This document shows, piece by piece, positions 54,791 through 64,000 of a DNA stretch of 64,000 bases; within the stretch, counting starts at the first letter, position 1, and every line of letters starts with the position of its first letter. A model generated the notes under the pieces. That model was not told the DNA's origin. It worked only from the letters and a program-made list of their open reading frames with translations, and made no database searches. The stretch spans positions 1 to 64,000 of the forward strand of contig JAGRHC010000002.1 in the NCBI GenBank assembly GCA_020445145.1, in the 5' to 3' direction. The translations under genes and the position numbers were made by a program. This DNA is from Alphaproteobacteria bacterium (GTDB lineage: Bacteria > Pseudomonadota > Alphaproteobacteria > Micavibrionales > Micavibrionaceae).

Positions 54791-55681
54791 TCAATCATGA
54801 GACGGCAAAAAAGGCTCCTCCACAACAGCCGCCGACGACGCATAAGACTTCAACCCCTTAAAATCCAGAGGATCACAAGGCTTGGAACTGATCCTGACCG
54901 CAGACTCAATAATCTCACCATTCGGCGTCACATGCTCGCCGAGCTGATCTTGAGACAAAATCTGCCGGGAAATCTTGGGCCCTCCCACAAACAGATAATA
55001 ATGCAAAACCTTGTCCGTATAGGCTGAATCAAGAAAATCGTTATAAGCAAGCTTGATCAGTTGAAACATCTCCGACTGCTTATCTTTTGAATCCGTCGTC
55101 AACACAGCAGGCGAACTCAAAACCTTCTCACCATACAAAACACCGATCGTATCAATAACCGCATCCCCGCCGGCATTCCGCCGTGCAGGAGTCGTCGCCG
55201 TAATGATCGTCACCCCGGCCTCGTACATCTCCTTCAACTGCCGCGCAGCAACAGCAACCAGATCAGGCGGCGGGTTAAGCCCGGTTGCCCCCGGCACCTC
55301 GCTCGACATCAAAAACAAAGCATGATCCGTAAAATCGGAAATCCTCTGCAACAAATCATCCTTACGTTGATGCAAAGCCGTATCATCAGCCTCATATAAA
55401 GAAAAATCCTTATCCGATTTCGGGGCAGGGCGCTTCTCCTGCTCCAAAGCAATCGCCTTCGCAAACACATCAGAACAAAAATTCGAGGCCCGATACCCAA
55501 AGAGCTGCGCATATTTCTGAATCTCACGAATATTCTCGTGATAATGCGCCTCAGCATCCTGCAAAAAAGCGTGCTGCCGCTTCTCTTCCTCACTCTCGCA
55601 ACCAGGAAGCAAAAGAGAAAGAGTCGAAGCAAACAACCCCTTCAAAGCAATCCGTCGATCAGATAAAAATCCACCCGTCAT
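54791..55681 (-). CDS. Predicted Tat-exported lipoprotein of unknown function
   Basis: 296 residues. The N-terminus has a twin-Arg motif (SDRRIALKGLF) and a lipobox LLPGC, so export as a Tat-dependent lipoprotein is predicted. The mature part is helical and charged (AFLQDAEAHYHENIREIQKY), with a middle section (VITATTPARRNAGGDAVIDTIG) that might bind a ligand. The family is not recognised. Codon use still matches the core genes, so it is probably the last chromosomal gene before the change of composition at about 55.8 kb. Confidence 0.7.
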   Translation of the reverse strand: MTGGFLSDRRIALKGLFASTLSLLLPGCESEEEKRQHAFLQDAEAHYHENIREIQKYAQLFGYRASNFCSDVFAKAIALEQEKRPAPKSDKDFSLYEADDTALHQRKDDLLQRISDFTDHALFLMSSEVPGATGLNPPPDLVAVAARQLKEMYEAGVTIITATTPARRNAGGDAVIDTIGVLYGEKVLSSPAVLTTDSKDKQSEMFQLIKLAYNDFLDSAYTDKVLHYYLFVGGPKISRQILSQDQLGEHVTPNGEIIESAVRISSKPCDPLDFKGLKSYASSAAVVEEPFLPSHD

Positions 55682-56077
55682 ATTGAAGCACCCTAAAAAA
55701 CAATCAGCCCATTATGCCGAAGCCTGATAAAACATGCAAATATAAGGAAAACTGGAACGGACCTCTATCGAATTGAGCGGTTAAGCACTTGAACTGACTC
55801 AATAATCACCAATTCGATTTTAGCATAGCCCCCAAATTTGCCCCTTATTACAGAGGCTTGAAGGACTTTTATTCATTATCAATCAAGGGCGATCATACAC
55901 GCTTGCGCTCTGAAAACAAAGCACTATTCAAGGTTATTTCAGATATAAACCCACCCCCCGGGGGCGCCCCGCGCCTGTCGCAGAAAATTCTATCTGCTGC
56001 GGCTATAAAAATTATGGACAAAAATGACTTGCCTACATTTTGTATTATGGTTGCCGTATAAAACGGAATTCTACGCT
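55682..56077. other. Intergenic region at the core/accessory boundary
   Basis: 396 bp without a convincing gene. It contains a 9-bp inverted repeat ATCGAATTG/CAATTCGAT (55767-55775 and 55810-55818) with a 34-base loop. A short GC block around CCCCCCGGGGG (55955-55964) interrupts otherwise AT-rich sequence. A 67-codon plus-strand frame (55858-56061) has no ribosome binding site and no recognisable similarity. No tRNA, tmRNA fragment or attachment repeat was identified, but the integration site of the accessory element could be here. Confidence 0.5.
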
Positions 56078-59000
56078 TTAGTCTACGGCTTTTGAGGCCT
56101 TCTTAGCGTGCCAAAAGCGAGTAGGCTTGCTACTACTCTTCAGACCAACATAAATTTCTTTGACACCCGATGAATCATCATAGTCGTGCCTTGATTTGTA
56201 TTTCGAGAAGCTGAGGTGATAGACGAGACTTCTATTGCAAGATTCTAGTGCGGCATCAAGCGCCGTATTTTCAGCCCATAAGATTGCCCCCCCATCTTGA
56301 AAGCGGTGGTTGCGGACGTCCGGATCTGGCTTCCATTCTCCCCAGACTTGATTTTCCAGTATTACTTTACCGTCACGATTATGCCAGAGTTTGGATTTAT
56401 CATCATTAGTAATACCAAGTTTCCTAGAGATTGTTTTACCTAATCTTGGTCGTGCTATTGCATATTTTGCAGCCCACTCATCGCCTTCATCAATGCCTAT
56501 GGGATAAGTCTCTGGTTCCCAAATTAGCGGAGAAAATGGTCTTGCTTTCTTGTTGAAGTGGAAACGATCTACGCACCCATCTGATGCAAACATCGGTAGC
56601 CAGAGGTCGTGATCCGGTAGCTTTGACAAATTTGTGCACTGGGTAACCGCTCCTCTTTGTTTAGTTAAGGCTGATACGAAGCGTACATATACCCCATCTC
56701 TGGATTTCCAGTGGCCATAAATCGGTTGAAAGCCTTTTTTAGATCCCTGTAAAAACCCAATTTTCTCTAGTAGCGTATCTCGATCCACAAGGGTTTCTTG
56801 ATTATCTCTGCGCTCACCTAAAAGGTCTTCGCGCGCTTGTGTCGGAACCCAATCTTTATGATCGGCCAGCCATGAGCCATCCTTAAAAGATACATCTTTT
56901 TCTATAAGCCATTCCTGCCAAGGGTTGAGCTTATCTGAATCATAGCTCGCACGAACTACCGGATGTGATTTAGAAAGCGTTGTTGCTGCATGAAGCAATG
57001 CGTGTCTTTGTATATGCTCGCGGTACATCTCAAATCGGTCATCAGGTCGGTAGCGCTCTGTGCCCGGAAAATCCGACATACTTGTAGCGTCCGGCCAGCG
57101 TTTAATCACTTCTTCAGCAATACTATCACATGCCTCATTATTCGAAATTCCGAACAATCGGGCTAAATCGGAAACCTTATGTTTGTTGAACTCGTAATCA
57201 AAATCGAAGTCTCTCACGCGCGCTTTGTTTGCAGGATAATCATTTCGTACAGCTACGCCATGAGGCGGCGTATTGACCTCGTTCCATAGCGTGGCAAGCT
57301 CAGGACTCATCTGTTGTCCACCTTCTATCTGTGTTAGACAGCGCGTCAGATGAAGTTTATTGACTACATGTAAATCAGACCGCTTCAAAAGACTTTCAAG
57401 TCGCGGCTTCAGAGATGCGAGTTTGTCTGCGTGATGTAGCGCTGCGCGGGTAAGCCCCATCAAGAGCCACTGTTGCGCATTGAGATATGCAAAGTTATAG
57501 TCCTCAGAGGCAAGCGATCCTGTTTCGGCCAGATCGAAACGATCAAGCAAACGTTCAATATCTTCGACAAGATCCACATCAAGCATGCCCTTTATGCTTC
57601 TTGCTGCACTCCATCTGACAAAAGCATCATCGTCACCAAGCAAATGCCAAATGATGTCCGCAAGCACATCGCCTTCTGTCGTGGCACCGGCAAAGTCGGA
57701 ACGATATTGTCCCTCACCAATCTCATCACCAATCTGCGCCGATGAACTTGCCAACAAGTCTTCAAATACCTCTAAAGCGACGGAAGGGGTTGCATGATTG
57801 CACAGGCTCGTCGCGATTTGGAGCCATTCATCACCTCCGAGCTGTATTCGTTCTTTCGCTATTGTCTCCAGAACGGACATGAGCACAAACCTAGGATCAC
57901 CACACAATGCGGACAGTCGGTAGATTTGTCGAGAAATTCCAGAATACCGAAGATCAAAAAGCTCGGAACCTTTGAACGCGAAAAGTTTGGAAATTATCTC
58001 GCGTATATTCTCTTTTACATGAGCTGTAGAGTCTGCCCACGCTTCCACGCACTCGATTATCAGGTCGAGGGCTCTATCGAACTCCAACTCAGTTGATTCA
58101 CAGATTGCATTAACGAAAGCGGCCCGTTTATCGTAAGGGCAATTCTCCAATATATTTTCGAAAAGGCGCTGTCTGTGGCTGAATTGGAGCACGTCACTAA
58201 GCTCAATTTCCTGTAGCGCCTCATCAAGAAAGAGAACATTAGCGGTATCAAGCTTGGCCACAATCGCGTTAAATGCCTTTTCACCATCTTGGTCGTCGCG
58301 GCTCTTTTTTCCGAGTTGAAGGTTTTTGCCGGTCGTGTTTCCTTCGTAATTCAGTCTGGCATTATCAAGATCGCGTTTGCGCCGTGCAGTATCGCGCAAG
58401 CCTTCCAAGCGTTCCCTCAGGCCGGTGTCGTTAATTTCTTCAAATGTTTTTACGCAATCAAGCAGGCTCTCCCAGAGCGTTTCCCAAGCCCCAAAGGTAT
58501 GTTCTGAATTCAGCTTTTCCACCACGAGCGAGAAGATCGCTTGTCGGCTATCAGGCTTTGCCACCGAAAGAAGATCGACAAGCCCTTTGCCAACCTGCCA
58601 CTCGTGCCAACCATGATCCTCGCAAATCGTCAATAATACTGCTGCGCGACGGGGATTCAGGCGTTCCGCCTTGGCGAGATAGCAGGCGAGTTGGGGAAGA
58701 CCGTATGAGAAGTCGGCAACATCCTGATCGTCCCATCGAACAAGCTTATAAACTGCCGGATAGCCTATAGAGGAAGCGGCGGCCTGACCAAAAAGCGTCC
58801 ATCCGAATTTTGACGGCTCATGCTGGAAGATCGTCTGGCACAAATTCATAAGCCGATGCGAGAGTTCAGGCTTGACGCAACCGCCAGATTGTTCGGCGGC
58901 ATAACGGAGAGTCGAGTATATCAGATCGAAGTCATCGCCGCCCATTTGATCAAGCTGGGCCAAACCCAGTTTGTAGTATTCACGCGCTTCAGCCAAACTC

Positions 59001-62000
59001 ATCGGGATCAATGACCCCGCAAGCTCCCTGTAATACTCTCCGCGCTGTTCGATATACTCGTCTTGGCGAATTTCTGCGGAAAGAGTCTTCGCATACTTTC
59101 CCGCAACATCGTTCAAGCTCAGGCGTCGAGAAATAAGAGCAAGAACACCGAGCTTGTCGGATAGAGTGAAACGGTTTCCTGATATGATTTCGATAAGAAG
59201 TTCAGCTTCCGTCTTTTCGACAGATAGGGAGGCCCGGAGCAGCACTTTGATAAATCCGATACCAACACGACGCGCCACATTGTCACGACCTCTTTCAGAT
59301 CTCCAGTGGGTATCAGACCTGAGTTCCGATTTCCAGACGGTCAGGAATTCGTTAATGGTAGCATTTGAAACTGGTGCTCCGGAAAGAATAGCAATTTCAA
59401 TGGGCTTAGCCAATCGCAGGATGCATTCGATACTTTCGACAATCTCCTCTCTTTCATGTTGTGGAAACCGCTTGCGCTTTTTTTGCGTGCCGTCTTTTTT
59501 ACCCCCGCGTTGAGCGCTTATTACCTCTAGACTATCAAGGTAGCTGTTCAATGCCGACTGATTGTCAATCGATCTCTCTTTTCGTCCGATTTTAATGCCT
59601 TGTGGCATCAAATGGTGATAGGTCAACGGGACACCGCTAGCCCAAGCCGATAGACAAGAGGACAATGCCGGTATCCACACGCGGTCCGTACCGTGCCGTT
59701 CTCCGTAATCGTAATCTGATGGTCTTCTGTGACTGTAAAGACTAAGGATCCTTTTGGCCGATTGTTTGGAGTTTACAATAATAGAAGTGATTGCTGCGCT
59801 TGCGACCTCTCCTTGAACAACGAACTCATAGTCGGAACCGTCTTCGGGAAAATTTTTCTTGTACTTTGCTGATAATGTACTCGCTGCTCGTGCCACGGCT
59901 TTGAGTTGCACATCTTTCAGGCCGCATTCGTTTGACAAAAGGCCAATCTGAAGAACAAGCGACAGACACCGTCTTGATGCCGCGAAGCGTACGAGGTTTT
60001 GCAAGGCTTGGCTTCCATTAGAAGCTTCATGCTGGGTGCAGAGCGAGATCAGTTCGCCTACAACGGAAAGTCCAAATCTCGGTGTCCAAAGCTGGATATT
60101 GCGATTAAGCGATCGAAGGTCATTTTTCAGAAGGTTTATAAAAATTACTGCGGCAACGTCAGATGCTCCAAATCCTGCGTTATTAAATCGCTTTTTCTCG
60201 TCATCATTGCCAAGGTACCAGTTTATCCAGCCTATCGCCCTGTTTTGATGAATGCGCGCATCATCAAGATCCTCTGAAAAGCTGTAGGCTACAGCTAAGC
60301 GTGCGTCACGTGCGCCGCGCCAGCCTGATCGATCATTAAACAGACGGCGCGTTGCGTCGTTGTCTCCGAGGATGGTCGCGAACGCAGGAGAGTGCCGTAT
60401 GAATTGATCGCCCCTTGCATTAGCTGAAGCAACCTGAGAGAGCTGCATGGCAAGGGTCAGGACGCGATCCAGGTCTTGGTCGCGGGTGGATAGTGCAAAT
60501 GCTGCGTGCAAACGCGCAAGCTTCAATCTGCGACGGCCATAATCGGACCCAATTGCAACTGGATACTCCTCGGACTTTGCCAGTTGATAAGCTCTATTGC
60601 TGTCGCCAATCACCACAAGAAAGTGAGGCAACGCTTCTGCCGCATAGAGCGAAGCGTTTTGGCGGTCTTGAAGTCGCTGCGCTATTGACTGCTGCGCTGC
60701 TACCTCATTCGCGTAGCGGTCATTTATGTAGGTCTCTGTCGGTTCGTCCCGAAATATTGCACCGTGTTTGACGATCTCCAGCATCGGAGCAAGATCAGAT
60801 GCTGCGCTGTTCACCTGTGAGTTCGACCAACCAAGCGCTGGCGCCAGTTCGTCCAACGGTATGGGCGGCGGAAGCAGCGAAAGGGCTGCAAAAAACTCCC
60901 GCACTTCGGATTCTAGCCACCCCGCCGTGTGTAAATTACCAAATATCTTTTCACATTTTTGCGCGATCAGTTCTTCTGCTGTTATTTCGGTCTTAGGACC
61001 GTCGCCCAGAATGTTCTCGTCCCAGCTCTCGACAAGATATTCAAGGACACGGGCATTACCGCGTGAACGCGCAAATGCAGTCGAGAACTCAACATCGGAG
61101 ACGTTTTCACGTCTCGTGTCGATAAACCTGCGTGTTTCCTCTTGAGAGAAGGGCTGAAGCTCGACGCGCTCAACTTTGCTCCTGCCGATCACGCTATCCA
61201 TGCGGTGGGGGCGGGCAGTAAGTATGAGCTTAACGCCGTCGATGGGTTCGGCACTCAGCGAACTGAGCAGAAGCCTTGGGAAGGACTGTTCATTTCGATG
61301 ATCTGCCTCCAACTGTGCGTTATCTGCGGCATCGATTACCAGCATTATGCCTTGCAGGGAGGACTGCTCCTTCACCGTTTTGCTAGCCTGCTGTAGTCGC
61401 TTTCGCGCGACTGCGATCAAGCCATATTGGTCAGCATCGGTGGGAAGCAGCGGATCGCACAGGCCCCGTGATGCCAGTTCATTAACAATCTGCAAGAGTC
61501 CCACACATGGGAGATGACGCGCTTGAGCCTCTGATCGGTACGCACCGCCGCCAAAGCAATCGAACACAACAGCTTCAAAAGTGTCGGAAAGATGAGCAGC
61601 CAAACTCTGAATGAATACAGTTTTTCCCACGCCACCGTCAGCGTACAAAAATACCGGAACGTCGGTTTTGACAATCATGCCTTTGACATCATTCAGGGCA
61701 CTGCGCTCGACTACGTCGCCAACGTCAATAAACCGCGTGTCGGCTGGAAAAAGATGATCTTCGTCGCACTCAAGCGCATCAAGAACGTCTTCACGTCGAA
61801 TAGAATTGTTATTCTGACCTTCCACTTGGGCCTTTTCGCGCACAAGCTCGACAAGTGCGAATAACCGCATTTTTGCTCGTCCGTCGGAGTCTGCGGACCA
61901 GTCACTAACTGTCCGGCGAAGGCAACGATTTTGGGTAGGCAGATCGCTTGTCGCGGCGCGGAACTCTATGAGCGGGAACAGGTGACTCGCTTCGATCTTT

Positions 62001-62518
62001 TCCTCTTTGCACCATGTCTGAAGATATTTGAGTTGTGTTTTCGCTTCGTCTGTTTTTGGTTCTACTCCGGACTTCAAACATGAAATTGCATCCCAAAGGT
62101 CTGGGGAGAATTCGGCATTCGTAACAAAGCCAAACGACAGCTTTTTTTCTACTTCTTCTTTGGGTGTGTTCTCCTCGTACTGACGCAGCGTCGCGGCAAA
62201 CTTCTTTATCGTTTTCTTGAGGTAGGATGATGTGACAGGATCAACGGCTACTTTATACTTGAATTGGAGAATTTGCTGAGCAGAGCATGTTCCAAACGTA
62301 TCCCCATCGCCGTAGAAGAGGATCAGGTCAGCGATGTCCTCTGCTTCTTGGCCGAGTTGAAGGCTTTCATTCGGAGAGAGACCTTCGACAACAATTGCGA
62401 AGAGATTATCTTTCGGGAAAACGAGTTGGAGTGCGCGCCTTGCCGACCAGCGTTCGTGGAAGGTATGTCCTGCGCGCGATGCTCTAACTGTGTCTATTTG
62501 TTTTCCGGCTTTATTCAC
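56078..62518 (-). CDS. Giant nuclease-NTPase (Cap4-like/STAND), candidate Avs-type antiphage sensor
   Basis: 2146 residues from a GTG at 62518; no in-frame ATG before residue 217, and AGGGG lies just upstream. Residues about 15-200 resemble the Cap4/DUF4297 PD-(D/E)xK nuclease: GHTFHERWSARRAL, VVEGLS, EDIADLILF (Asp61/Asp64) and QILQFKYK (Gln85, Lys87). A P-loop NTPase of STAND type follows: Walker A ADGGVGKT at 293-300, Walker B IMLVIDAADNA at 391-401, TARPHRMDS and a winged-helix-like part to about 600. Residues about 620-1700 are helical repeats; the last about 400 are mixed. Length and order fit Avs defence proteins that recognise phage proteins; which subtype is not established. Codon use differs from the core genes. 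Confidence 0.75.
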   Translation of the reverse strand: MNKAGKQIDTVRASRAGHTFHERWSARRALQLVFPKDNLFAIVVEGLSPNESLQLGQEAEDIADLILFYGDGDTFGTCSAQQILQFKYKVAVDPVTSSYLKKTIKKFAATLRQYEENTPKEEVEKKLSFGFVTNAEFSPDLWDAISCLKSGVEPKTDEAKTQLKYLQTWCKEEKIEASHLFPLIEFRAATSDLPTQNRCLRRTVSDWSADSDGRAKMRLFALVELVREKAQVEGQNNNSIRREDVLDALECDEDHLFPADTRFIDVGDVVERSALNDVKGMIVKTDVPVFLYADGGVGKTVFIQSLAAHLSDTFEAVVFDCFGGGAYRSEAQARHLPCVGLLQIVNELASRGLCDPLLPTDADQYGLIAVARKRLQQASKTVKEQSSLQGIMLVIDAADNAQLEADHRNEQSFPRLLLSSLSAEPIDGVKLILTARPHRMDSVIGRSKVERVELQPFSQEETRRFIDTRRENVSDVEFSTAFARSRGNARVLEYLVESWDENILGDGPKTEITAEELIAQKCEKIFGNLHTAGWLESEVREFFAALSLLPPPIPLDELAPALGWSNSQVNSAASDLAPMLEIVKHGAIFRDEPTETYINDRYANEVAAQQSIAQRLQDRQNASLYAAEALPHFLVVIGDSNRAYQLAKSEEYPVAIGSDYGRRRLKLARLHAAFALSTRDQDLDRVLTLAMQLSQVASANARGDQFIRHSPAFATILGDNDATRRLFNDRSGWRGARDARLAVAYSFSEDLDDARIHQNRAIGWINWYLGNDDEKKRFNNAGFGASDVAAVIFINLLKNDLRSLNRNIQLWTPRFGLSVVGELISLCTQHEASNGSQALQNLVRFAASRRCLSLVLQIGLLSNECGLKDVQLKAVARAASTLSAKYKKNFPEDGSDYEFVVQGEVASAAITSIIVNSKQSAKRILSLYSHRRPSDYDYGERHGTDRVWIPALSSCLSAWASGVPLTYHHLMPQGIKIGRKERSIDNQSALNSYLDSLEVISAQRGGKKDGTQKKRKRFPQHEREEIVESIECILRLAKPIEIAILSGAPVSNATINEFLTVWKSELRSDTHWRSERGRDNVARRVGIGFIKVLLRASLSVEKTEAELLIEIISGNRFTLSDKLGVLALISRRLSLNDVAGKYAKTLSAEIRQDEYIEQRGEYYRELAGSLIPMSLAEAREYYKLGLAQLDQMGGDDFDLIYSTLRYAAEQSGGCVKPELSHRLMNLCQTIFQHEPSKFGWTLFGQAAASSIGYPAVYKLVRWDDQDVADFSYGLPQLACYLAKAERLNPRRAAVLLTICEDHGWHEWQVGKGLVDLLSVAKPDSRQAIFSLVVEKLNSEHTFGAWETLWESLLDCVKTFEEINDTGLRERLEGLRDTARRKRDLDNARLNYEGNTTGKNLQLGKKSRDDQDGEKAFNAIVAKLDTANVLFLDEALQEIELSDVLQFSHRQRLFENILENCPYDKRAAFVNAICESTELEFDRALDLIIECVEAWADSTAHVKENIREIISKLFAFKGSELFDLRYSGISRQIYRLSALCGDPRFVLMSVLETIAKERIQLGGDEWLQIATSLCNHATPSVALEVFEDLLASSSAQIGDEIGEGQYRSDFAGATTEGDVLADIIWHLLGDDDAFVRWSAARSIKGMLDVDLVEDIERLLDRFDLAETGSLASEDYNFAYLNAQQWLLMGLTRAALHHADKLASLKPRLESLLKRSDLHVVNKLHLTRCLTQIEGGQQMSPELATLWNEVNTPPHGVAVRNDYPANKARVRDFDFDYEFNKHKVSDLARLFGISNNEACDSIAEEVIKRWPDATSMSDFPGTERYRPDDRFEMYREHIQRHALLHAATTLSKSHPVVRASYDSDKLNPWQEWLIEKDVSFKDGSWLADHKDWVPTQAREDLLGERRDNQETLVDRDTLLEKIGFLQGSKKGFQPIYGHWKSRDGVYVRFVSALTKQRGAVTQCTNLSKLPDHDLWLPMFASDGCVDRFHFNKKARPFSPLIWEPETYPIGIDEGDEWAAKYAIARPRLGKTISRKLGITNDDKSKLWHNRDGKVILENQVWGEWKPDPDVRNHRFQDGGAILWAENTALDAALESCNRSLVYHLSFSKYKSRHDYDDSSGVKEIYVGLKSSSKPTRFWHAKKASKAVD

Positions 62519-62882
62519 AACAGCCCCTATTTTTCAAAATATGATAAATTTTCTAGCATATTTGCACAACGGCCTAAGTCAGTACAGCATACAGCCTAAA
62601 GATCATTAATCTCAGAGGGTGGCCAACATCTGCAATTTAGCGCACCCATGGCTTGGGCAGGACAGGATGGTTGTGAAAATCCAATATTTTTTTCTCTGAA
62701 AAGGAGCATTGATTTTATTGAAAAAAATAGCTGTATATTGGATAAAACCTACAATATGTCGGTTTTATTAAGTTGTTTCAATAGCTTAGGAAGTTCTTTC
62801 GGTTGCCTTCACTATTAATCATTGCTATATTTCAAGCACAATCACGCGAAACCGTAACACTTCATGCGGAGGAAATGACAAC
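62519..62882. promoter_or_regulatory. Divergent promoter region of the nuclease-NTPase gene and the AlpA-like gene
   Basis: 364 bp. For the giant gene (minus strand): -35 TTGTGC (62569-62564), 17-bp spacer, -10 TATCAT (62546-62541). For the AlpA-like gene (plus strand): -35 TTGCCT (62803-62808), 17-bp spacer, -10 TATATT (62826-62831). An 8-bp inverted repeat (62742-62749 and 62761-62768, arms ATAAAACC and GGTTTTAT) upstream of the latter is a candidate operator. The segment is very AT-rich. Confidence 0.6.
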
Positions 62883-63122
62883 ATGCAAACGCTAGAAAAT
62901 AACAATGATAAGAGCAACAACGAATTGCCTTTGCCCAGACTCTCTTTTGGCCCTGTCGGAGCTGCAAACGTCGCCGGTATCGGCCTGACCAAGCTCTACG
63001 AAGAGATCAAGTCAGGACGGCTCAAGGCGAAGAAATTTGGAAAGAGAACGCTTGTGACGGCAGCGGCTCTGGAAGACTGGCTGAATAGCCTCCCTGATTA
63101 CGAAACTGAAACGCCCCAATAA
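62883..63122 (+). CDS. AlpA-type helix-turn-helix regulator
   Basis: 79 residues with a MerR-like excisionase HTH (about 20-70): GAANVAGIGLTKLYEEIKSG, then RLKAKKFGKRTLVTAAALED and WLNSL, the standard pattern of AlpA/HTH_17 proteins. Such proteins regulate excision and integrase genes in P4-like satellites, prophages and integrative elements. A strong ribosome binding site (GCGGAGGAAATG) precedes the ATG. Followed at once by an intrinsic terminator. Confidence 0.85.
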   Translation: MQTLENNNDKSNNELPLPRLSFGPVGAANVAGIGLTKLYEEIKSGRLKAKKFGKRTLVTAAALEDWLNSLPDYETETPQ

Positions 63123-63156
63123 AAAACCGCCGTGCTTGTCCCACAAGGCGGTTTTT
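63122..63156 (+). terminator. Intrinsic terminator after the AlpA-like gene
   Basis: Perfect 10-bp inverted repeat (63122-63131 and 63147-63156, arms AAAAACCGCC and GGCGGTTTTT) with a 15-base loop in which GTG and CAC can add pairs. The stem ends in five T on the plus strand. The left arm begins inside the stop codon of the AlpA-like gene. It lies 15 bp before the primase-like gene, so expression of that gene would require read-through or a promoter within the hairpin region. Confidence 0.8.
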
Positions 63157-63170
63157 GAAAGTTCTTTGAT

Positions 63171-64000
63171 ATGTCTGATAATACCAAGAGCGCGGCAGCG
63201 TTGCAAGCTGCTGATCCTCACACAATCCCCGTTCTAGTCTCCGCCTCCAGTCTGAGTTTAAGGAAACGCTTTTACAAAAAAGAAGACGGTAGCGTTGGCA
63301 AAGAAGATTACTGCAATGCCAAGCATTTCAGTGTTTTCCATCGTACAGCGTCTAGCATACGAGAGTTATCGGCAGTGCTGTCCGATTTGGAAATAGTGTC
63401 CAATAATGGCATTATTCGTGGTGCCATTAACGAAGGGGTCGCGCCTAAAAAAGTCAGGCGTTTGAAAAAGAATTTTGCAGATGTCCCGCGCTACTTCATC
63501 TGTATTGACGTTGACGAGCTTGCCTGTCCGGATTTATACGACCCGCTTACCGAGTCCGCAGAAACGATCATTGACTACATTATAGACCTTCTGCCCCCAG
63601 AATTTCATGACGCAAGCTATCACTATCAGTTTTCATCTTCTTTCGGCACAGAAGGTCTGACCGGTAACGGCACTTTCGGCCAAACACTCAAGGCACATAT
63701 TTGGTTTATGCTCGATCAGCCTCGTACTTGTGAAGAATTGCATAGATGGGCGCAGGCGGCTAACGATGCTGCCGGGTTCAAGCTGGTCGATGTGAGCTTA
63801 TACAACCCTGTCCAGATGCACTACGTCTCCAGACCGCACTTTGACGAACTCATAGACCCTGTTAAAGAGAGGTCCGGCTTTGTCGAACGCGAAAATGATG
63901 TTGTGGCCATCGTCATACCGGACAGGAAGCCGCCCGCAGCGGCCATCGCTTCCGGACAGCGCCTAACGTCAGTGGAGACGGCTCCGGGGTTTGAGAATAA
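63171..64000 (+). CDS. AEP primase-like replication protein, cut by the window edge
   Basis: About 276 codons visible, open at the right edge; ATG at 63171. It resembles archaeo-eukaryotic primase domains of mobile-element replication proteins. A hDhD metal motif lies at CIDVDEL (Asp113, Asp115), a Ser-rich loop at QFSSSFGTEG (about 153-162), and the conserved K-x-H at LKAHIWFML (His176). Usually a helicase domain follows, but it would lie outside the window. No good ribosome binding site. With the AlpA-like protein it suggests a P4-like satellite or integrative element. Confidence 0.65.
   Translation, partial: MSDNTKSAAALQAADPHTIPVLVSASSLSLRKRFYKKEDGSVGKEDYCNAKHFSVFHRTASSIRELSAVLSDLEIVSNNGIIRGAINEGVAPKKVRRLKKNFADVPRYFICIDVDELACPDLYDPLTESAETIIDYIIDLLPPEFHDASYHYQFSSSFGTEGLTGNGTFGQTLKAHIWFMLDQPRTCEELHRWAQAANDAAGFKLVDVSLYNPVQMHYVSRPHFDELIDPVKERSGFVERENDVVAIVIPDRKPPAAAIASGQRLTSVETAPGFEN

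Follow-up and report, generated by a model that had tools for sequence, protein, structure and literature searches.

The window, by which we mean the whole 64,000-nucleotide stretch analysed here, carries on its minus strand a single open frame for a 2146-residue protein (56078..62518), with a GTG start that is backed by homologues in other bacteria beginning at the same residue. When this protein was compared with all PADLOC and NCBIfam models, Avs3a was the only one to match, namely the NCBIfam model NF041816 (1.7e-202, residues 11–2118 aligned to model positions 1–2059) and its PADLOC counterpart (3.3e-175), and none of the other Avs types in these collections did. The sole solved structure that it matched was SeAvs3 (PDB 8DGC, 1.2e-112), and this match spans the whole protein. 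Our HMM searches thus agree with a preliminary description of the locus, made from the letters alone, which had proposed an Avs-type STAND nuclease. The match is nevertheless a diverged one: the protein is ~25% identical to canonical Avs3 and scored 675.5 bits against the 2800 required by the NCBI Avs3a equivalog cut-off. A phage origin of the gene was considered and rejected as it gave no matches, and IMG/VR scans with Avs3 and with the neighbouring primase as queries returned no relative.

The domain structure of the protein follows that of SeAvs3. Its first 250 residues (61769..62518, minus strand) form a Cap4/PD-(D/E)xK-type nuclease region with a profile match to SeAvs3 7–242 (2.1e-24), in which the predicted active-site motif Q85-x-K87 is invariant in an alignment of the wider family. 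Residues 291–466 (61121..61648, minus strand) correspond to the NACHT/STAND ATPase (Pfam NACHT, 6.7e-8, above its cut-off), with Walker A (ADGGVGKT, K299) and Walker B (IDAAD, D396 and D399) recognizable in the alignment, so the nuclease-like N-terminus and the STAND P-loop that had been read from the translation are both genuine. The last ~400 residues had been described as free of any recognised domain, which is correct as far as Pfam is concerned; however, the predicted C-terminal sensor region (residues 1700–2146; 56081..57421, minus strand) is homologous to SeAvs3 1651–2054 (hmmsearch, 1.8e-16), and as this region matches separately we regard it as an ordinary Avs3 C-terminus. Invariant across clades, counting the window lineage against the canonical proteins compared and omitting a few divergent or incomplete rows, are Q85 and K87 of the nuclease, G296, G298 and K299 of Walker A, D396 and D399 of Walker B, and H1717, F1789, H1839, W2059 and G2077 in the C-terminal part. 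For residues 1–250 and 1700–2146, the alignments available to AlphaFold were shallow and its models had low confidence (pLDDT 43 and 52), so they were set aside. The likeness to Avs3a of AVAST type 3 comprises the full-length alignment, the Cap4-type nuclease, the STAND/NACHT ATPase, the long C-terminal sensor and the motif residues. DUF4297-HerA and Cap4 effectors have a PD-(D/E)xK nuclease of the same superfold as that in SeAvs3 (PMC11291478), whereas in the window protein the nuclease is fused to the STAND and sensor parts in one chain.

Divergent from the avs3-like gene lies the gene of a 79-residue AlpA/excisionase-type HTH protein (62883..63122, plus strand; Pfam HTH_17, 7e-7), which scored 27.5 bits against the TIGR01764 excisionase model, slightly below its cut-off of 28.8. 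It is followed by a 1271-residue AEP primase-helicase (63171–66986, plus strand), of which the first 276 residues fall in the window (63171..64000; PHROG DNA primase, 1.1e-30); the match of its helicase part to Pfam is weak, and the proteins most similar to it are those of alphaproteobacterial plasmids. The AlpA-type regulator and the AEP primase-like gene of the preliminary description were thus correctly recognized. We followed the contig rightwards in search of an integrase, as had been suggested, and found 3' of the primase gene a 370-residue protein (L002:15096–16208), for which neither Pfam, NCBIfam, PHROGs nor PADLOC gave a family and plasmids gave nothing similar, and between this gene and the integrase an HI1420/HI1419-type antitoxin-toxin pair. 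The CP4/P4-type integrase itself (68933–70156, minus strand) matched PRK09692 with an E-value of 4.3e-93 and 312 bits, under that model's own cut-off of 434, and is separated by 168 bp from a tRNA-Cys gene (70324–70397, minus strand; L002:18325–18398). The right flank is consequently not plain chromosome. Beyond the tRNA, on a contig that ends at 73,622, conserved chromosomal genes follow, namely PCMT, DUF2497 (PopZ-type) and one further gene, in the same order as beside tRNA-Cys in relatives.

The limits of this gene group are visible in its composition. The strong chromosomal strand asymmetry vanishes between two change points, placed by a two-change-point fit at 55960..56040, shortly beyond the stop codon of Avs3, and at 70,310–70,410, at the 3' end of tRNA-Cys; the mean asymmetry is -0.003 inside, as compared to 0.155–0.230 in every other equal-length stretch to the left. 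These limits put Avs3 within an island of ~14.4 kb. Searches for att direct repeats, both exact and mismatched, in the contig, the genome itself and its relatives identified none that was significant, the best left-flank match to the 3' part of tRNA-Cys being the candidate GGAACGGACCTCTATCGAA (55754..55772, plus strand), which is identical at 14/19 positions and does not exceed shuffled sequences. GCCCC repeats of the arm type, seen at either end, were set aside because they are too common to count.

With a P4-type integrase and a tRNA on the right and composition breaks at both ends, the earlier proposal that the gene is cargo of an AlpA/primase element stands, while two of the terms used for that element were too strong. 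"Defence island" overstates its content, as no defence gene was recognised in it besides Avs3, which is accompanied by one toxin-antitoxin pair. "P4-like satellite", taken in its strict sense, goes beyond what the genes support: neither capsid-hijacking genes nor a cos site were identified in the element, and a search of its proteins for the capsid-size and polarity families Sid, Delta and Psu found none. In common with P4-like satellites, and with the defence islands that integrases carry to tRNA genes (PMC9122126, PMC10121019), it has a CP4/P4-type integrase by a tRNA, an AlpA-like regulator, a primase-helicase and variable cargo that includes a defence gene; unlike the satellites, it has a plasmid-like primase-helicase and belongs to another host group.

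At least nine other genomes of the order have integrases 69–76% identical to this one at tRNA-Cys, and across at least ten genomes of the order P4-type integrases with differing replication modules have repeatedly used this tRNA for integration. In the four elements that we looked at, the integrase is accompanied by AlpA-type genes and by unrelated replication genes (an AEP-like primase; a Toprim primase plus AAA helicase; an AAA helicase alone; DUF3631). In one genome (G004), a close integrase lies at tRNA-Tyr in addition to the one at tRNA-Cys. The window's own genome encodes two more integrases of the same family (G000:C58:8024–9235, 60% identical, and G000:C26:50646–51869, 54%), from which we expect that it probably contains further islands.

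What sets the protein apart is the gene that is missing next to it. In all nine canonical loci examined (seven on plasmids, one in Halomonas and one in the genome G039) the Avs3a gene is immediately followed by avs3b, a gene of ~210–260 codons. In contrast, a profile made from seven avs3b proteins found no avs3b in the window, the contig extension or 13 genome-collection loci, and none next to additional relatives, which came from plasmids and one other genome; nor did it find a copy fused to the large protein. The observation that the window gene stands alone, with no small accessory genes on its strand, is correct. A 296-residue gene downstream on the same strand (54791–55681) was rejected as a partner, as it has no family, lies beyond the composition limits and is not avs3b. 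This orphan gene lies directly left of the island, and among 142 genomes of the order it has one weak relative.

A tree of 25 proteins places the window protein in a group with 15 members, none of which has avs3b (SH-aLRT 100), with a stem of ~1.2 changes per column, and seven canonical Avs3 proteins form a separate group (support 99). In a second tree, which omitted several rows including long-branched ones and two Tistrella-type proteins, the presence or absence of avs3b is explained by a single change. The Tistrella-type Avs3-like proteins (L115, L116; G399, G174) are more distant, lack avs3b and fall outside both main groups, and in the first tree the two of them group with an avs3b-bearing protein. 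The avs3b difference may thus have a single origin, a suggestion for which two trees made by a quick method, in which long branches meet, fall short of proof. The preliminary description had raised the possibility of a new subtype because of the C-terminus, a reason that does not hold for an ordinary Avs3 C-terminus; the missing avs3b and the separate clade do indicate a distinct Avs3 subtype. The genome G039 (L111, G039:C88), which belongs to the same family as the window's genome, has avs3b beside an Avs3a gene of the canonical branch, and a single bacterial family thus harbours both branches.

The nearest relatives of the window protein (65–69% identity) are found in Rhodobacteraceae, Hyphomonadaceae, Pseudohongiella, Ewingella, Citrobacter and Desulfosediminicola, and so cover Enterobacterales (Ewingella, Citrobacter) and Desulfobacterota besides Rhodobacteraceae, a taxonomic scatter that indicates horizontal spread. 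Avs3-like proteins of any branch are sparse nearer to home, being matched in two other genomes of the 142 of the order, one by a weak fragment only, and in three other genomes of 385 sampled from the class. Some avs3 relatives are broken by IS elements or disrupted frames (L108, L012, L014), among them a Rhizobium copy split by IS elements and the interrupted copies L012 and L014, possibly a sign of cost or of relaxed selection.

Based on the full-length homology to SeAvs3, the retained nuclease and ATPase motifs, the lack of avs3b, the composition limits and the integrase at tRNA-Cys, we consider it likely, with a probability of about 0.85, that the product of the window gene is an anti-phage sensor of Avs3 type, from a sister lineage of canonical Avs3a that has no partner gene, and that an integrative element of ~14.4 kb at tRNA-Cys carries the gene as cargo. 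None of its 65–69% relatives lies beside relatives of the element's integrase, primase or AlpA; Avs3 relatives elsewhere thus occur in other contexts, and the link of Avs3 to this element is local. The same fact, with the failure to find an att copy beyond Avs3, would suit an independent entry of Avs3 into the chromosome beside a tRNA-Cys element, i.e., two adjacent islands, but we judge this improbable given that there is one composition change point directly beyond the end of Avs3 and one at the tRNA, that Avs3 and AlpA are divergent and 364 bp apart, and that cargo next to the replication module would be usual in such elements. The several broken relatives could suggest that this copy, too, has decayed or fallen silent, which we hold to be very unlikely for one open frame of 2146 codons in which all motifs are intact.

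The published mechanism of SeAvs3 and of Avs1–4 (PMC11291478, PMC12931631) can be transferred to the window protein by homology: SeAvs3 captures a phage protein with its C-terminal part, ATP drives the formation of tetramers in which the nucleases are paired, and both phage and host DNA are cleaved. By analogy, the C-terminal repeats of the window protein would recognise a conserved protein of the phage, the large terminase subunit being the most likely one. Oligomerisation (tetramerisation) that depends on ATP would then pair the N-terminal nucleases, and these would cut phage and host DNA such that the infection is aborted; the protein is thus a probable sensor of invading phages that acts by destroying DNA. 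In the element, the AlpA-like protein would act as excisionase or activator and the primase-helicase would copy the excised element. The putative ligand is the least certain step. As the trigger varies between Avs families (PMC12931631), and this lineage has no avs3b, ~25% identity to canonical Avs3 and a long stem branch, it is conceivable that it senses something other than the large terminase, e.g., another packaging or structural protein, a suggestion to which the same full-length architecture and conserved C-terminal residues lend little favour, and which we hold to be rather unlikely.

NLR immune receptors have their bacterial counterparts in the Avs proteins. The avs3b-free branch of Avs3 is a modest novelty, in a protein that is otherwise ordinary in kind and well supported. 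A well-separated branch that retains the whole chain without avs3b offers a direct route to asking what role avs3b has, and the intact copies in Enterobacterales (Ewingella, Citrobacter) are readily transferable to laboratory E. coli. In addition, tRNA-Cys emerges as a site at which P4-type integrases, with replication genes that are interchangeable, have docked repeatedly in an alphaproteobacterial order that has received little study. Finally, we tentatively speculate that this Avs3 lineage, as a single-gene system that extends over several classes of proteobacteria and Desulfobacterota and works without avs3b, may recognise a phage signal unlike that of canonical Avs3.
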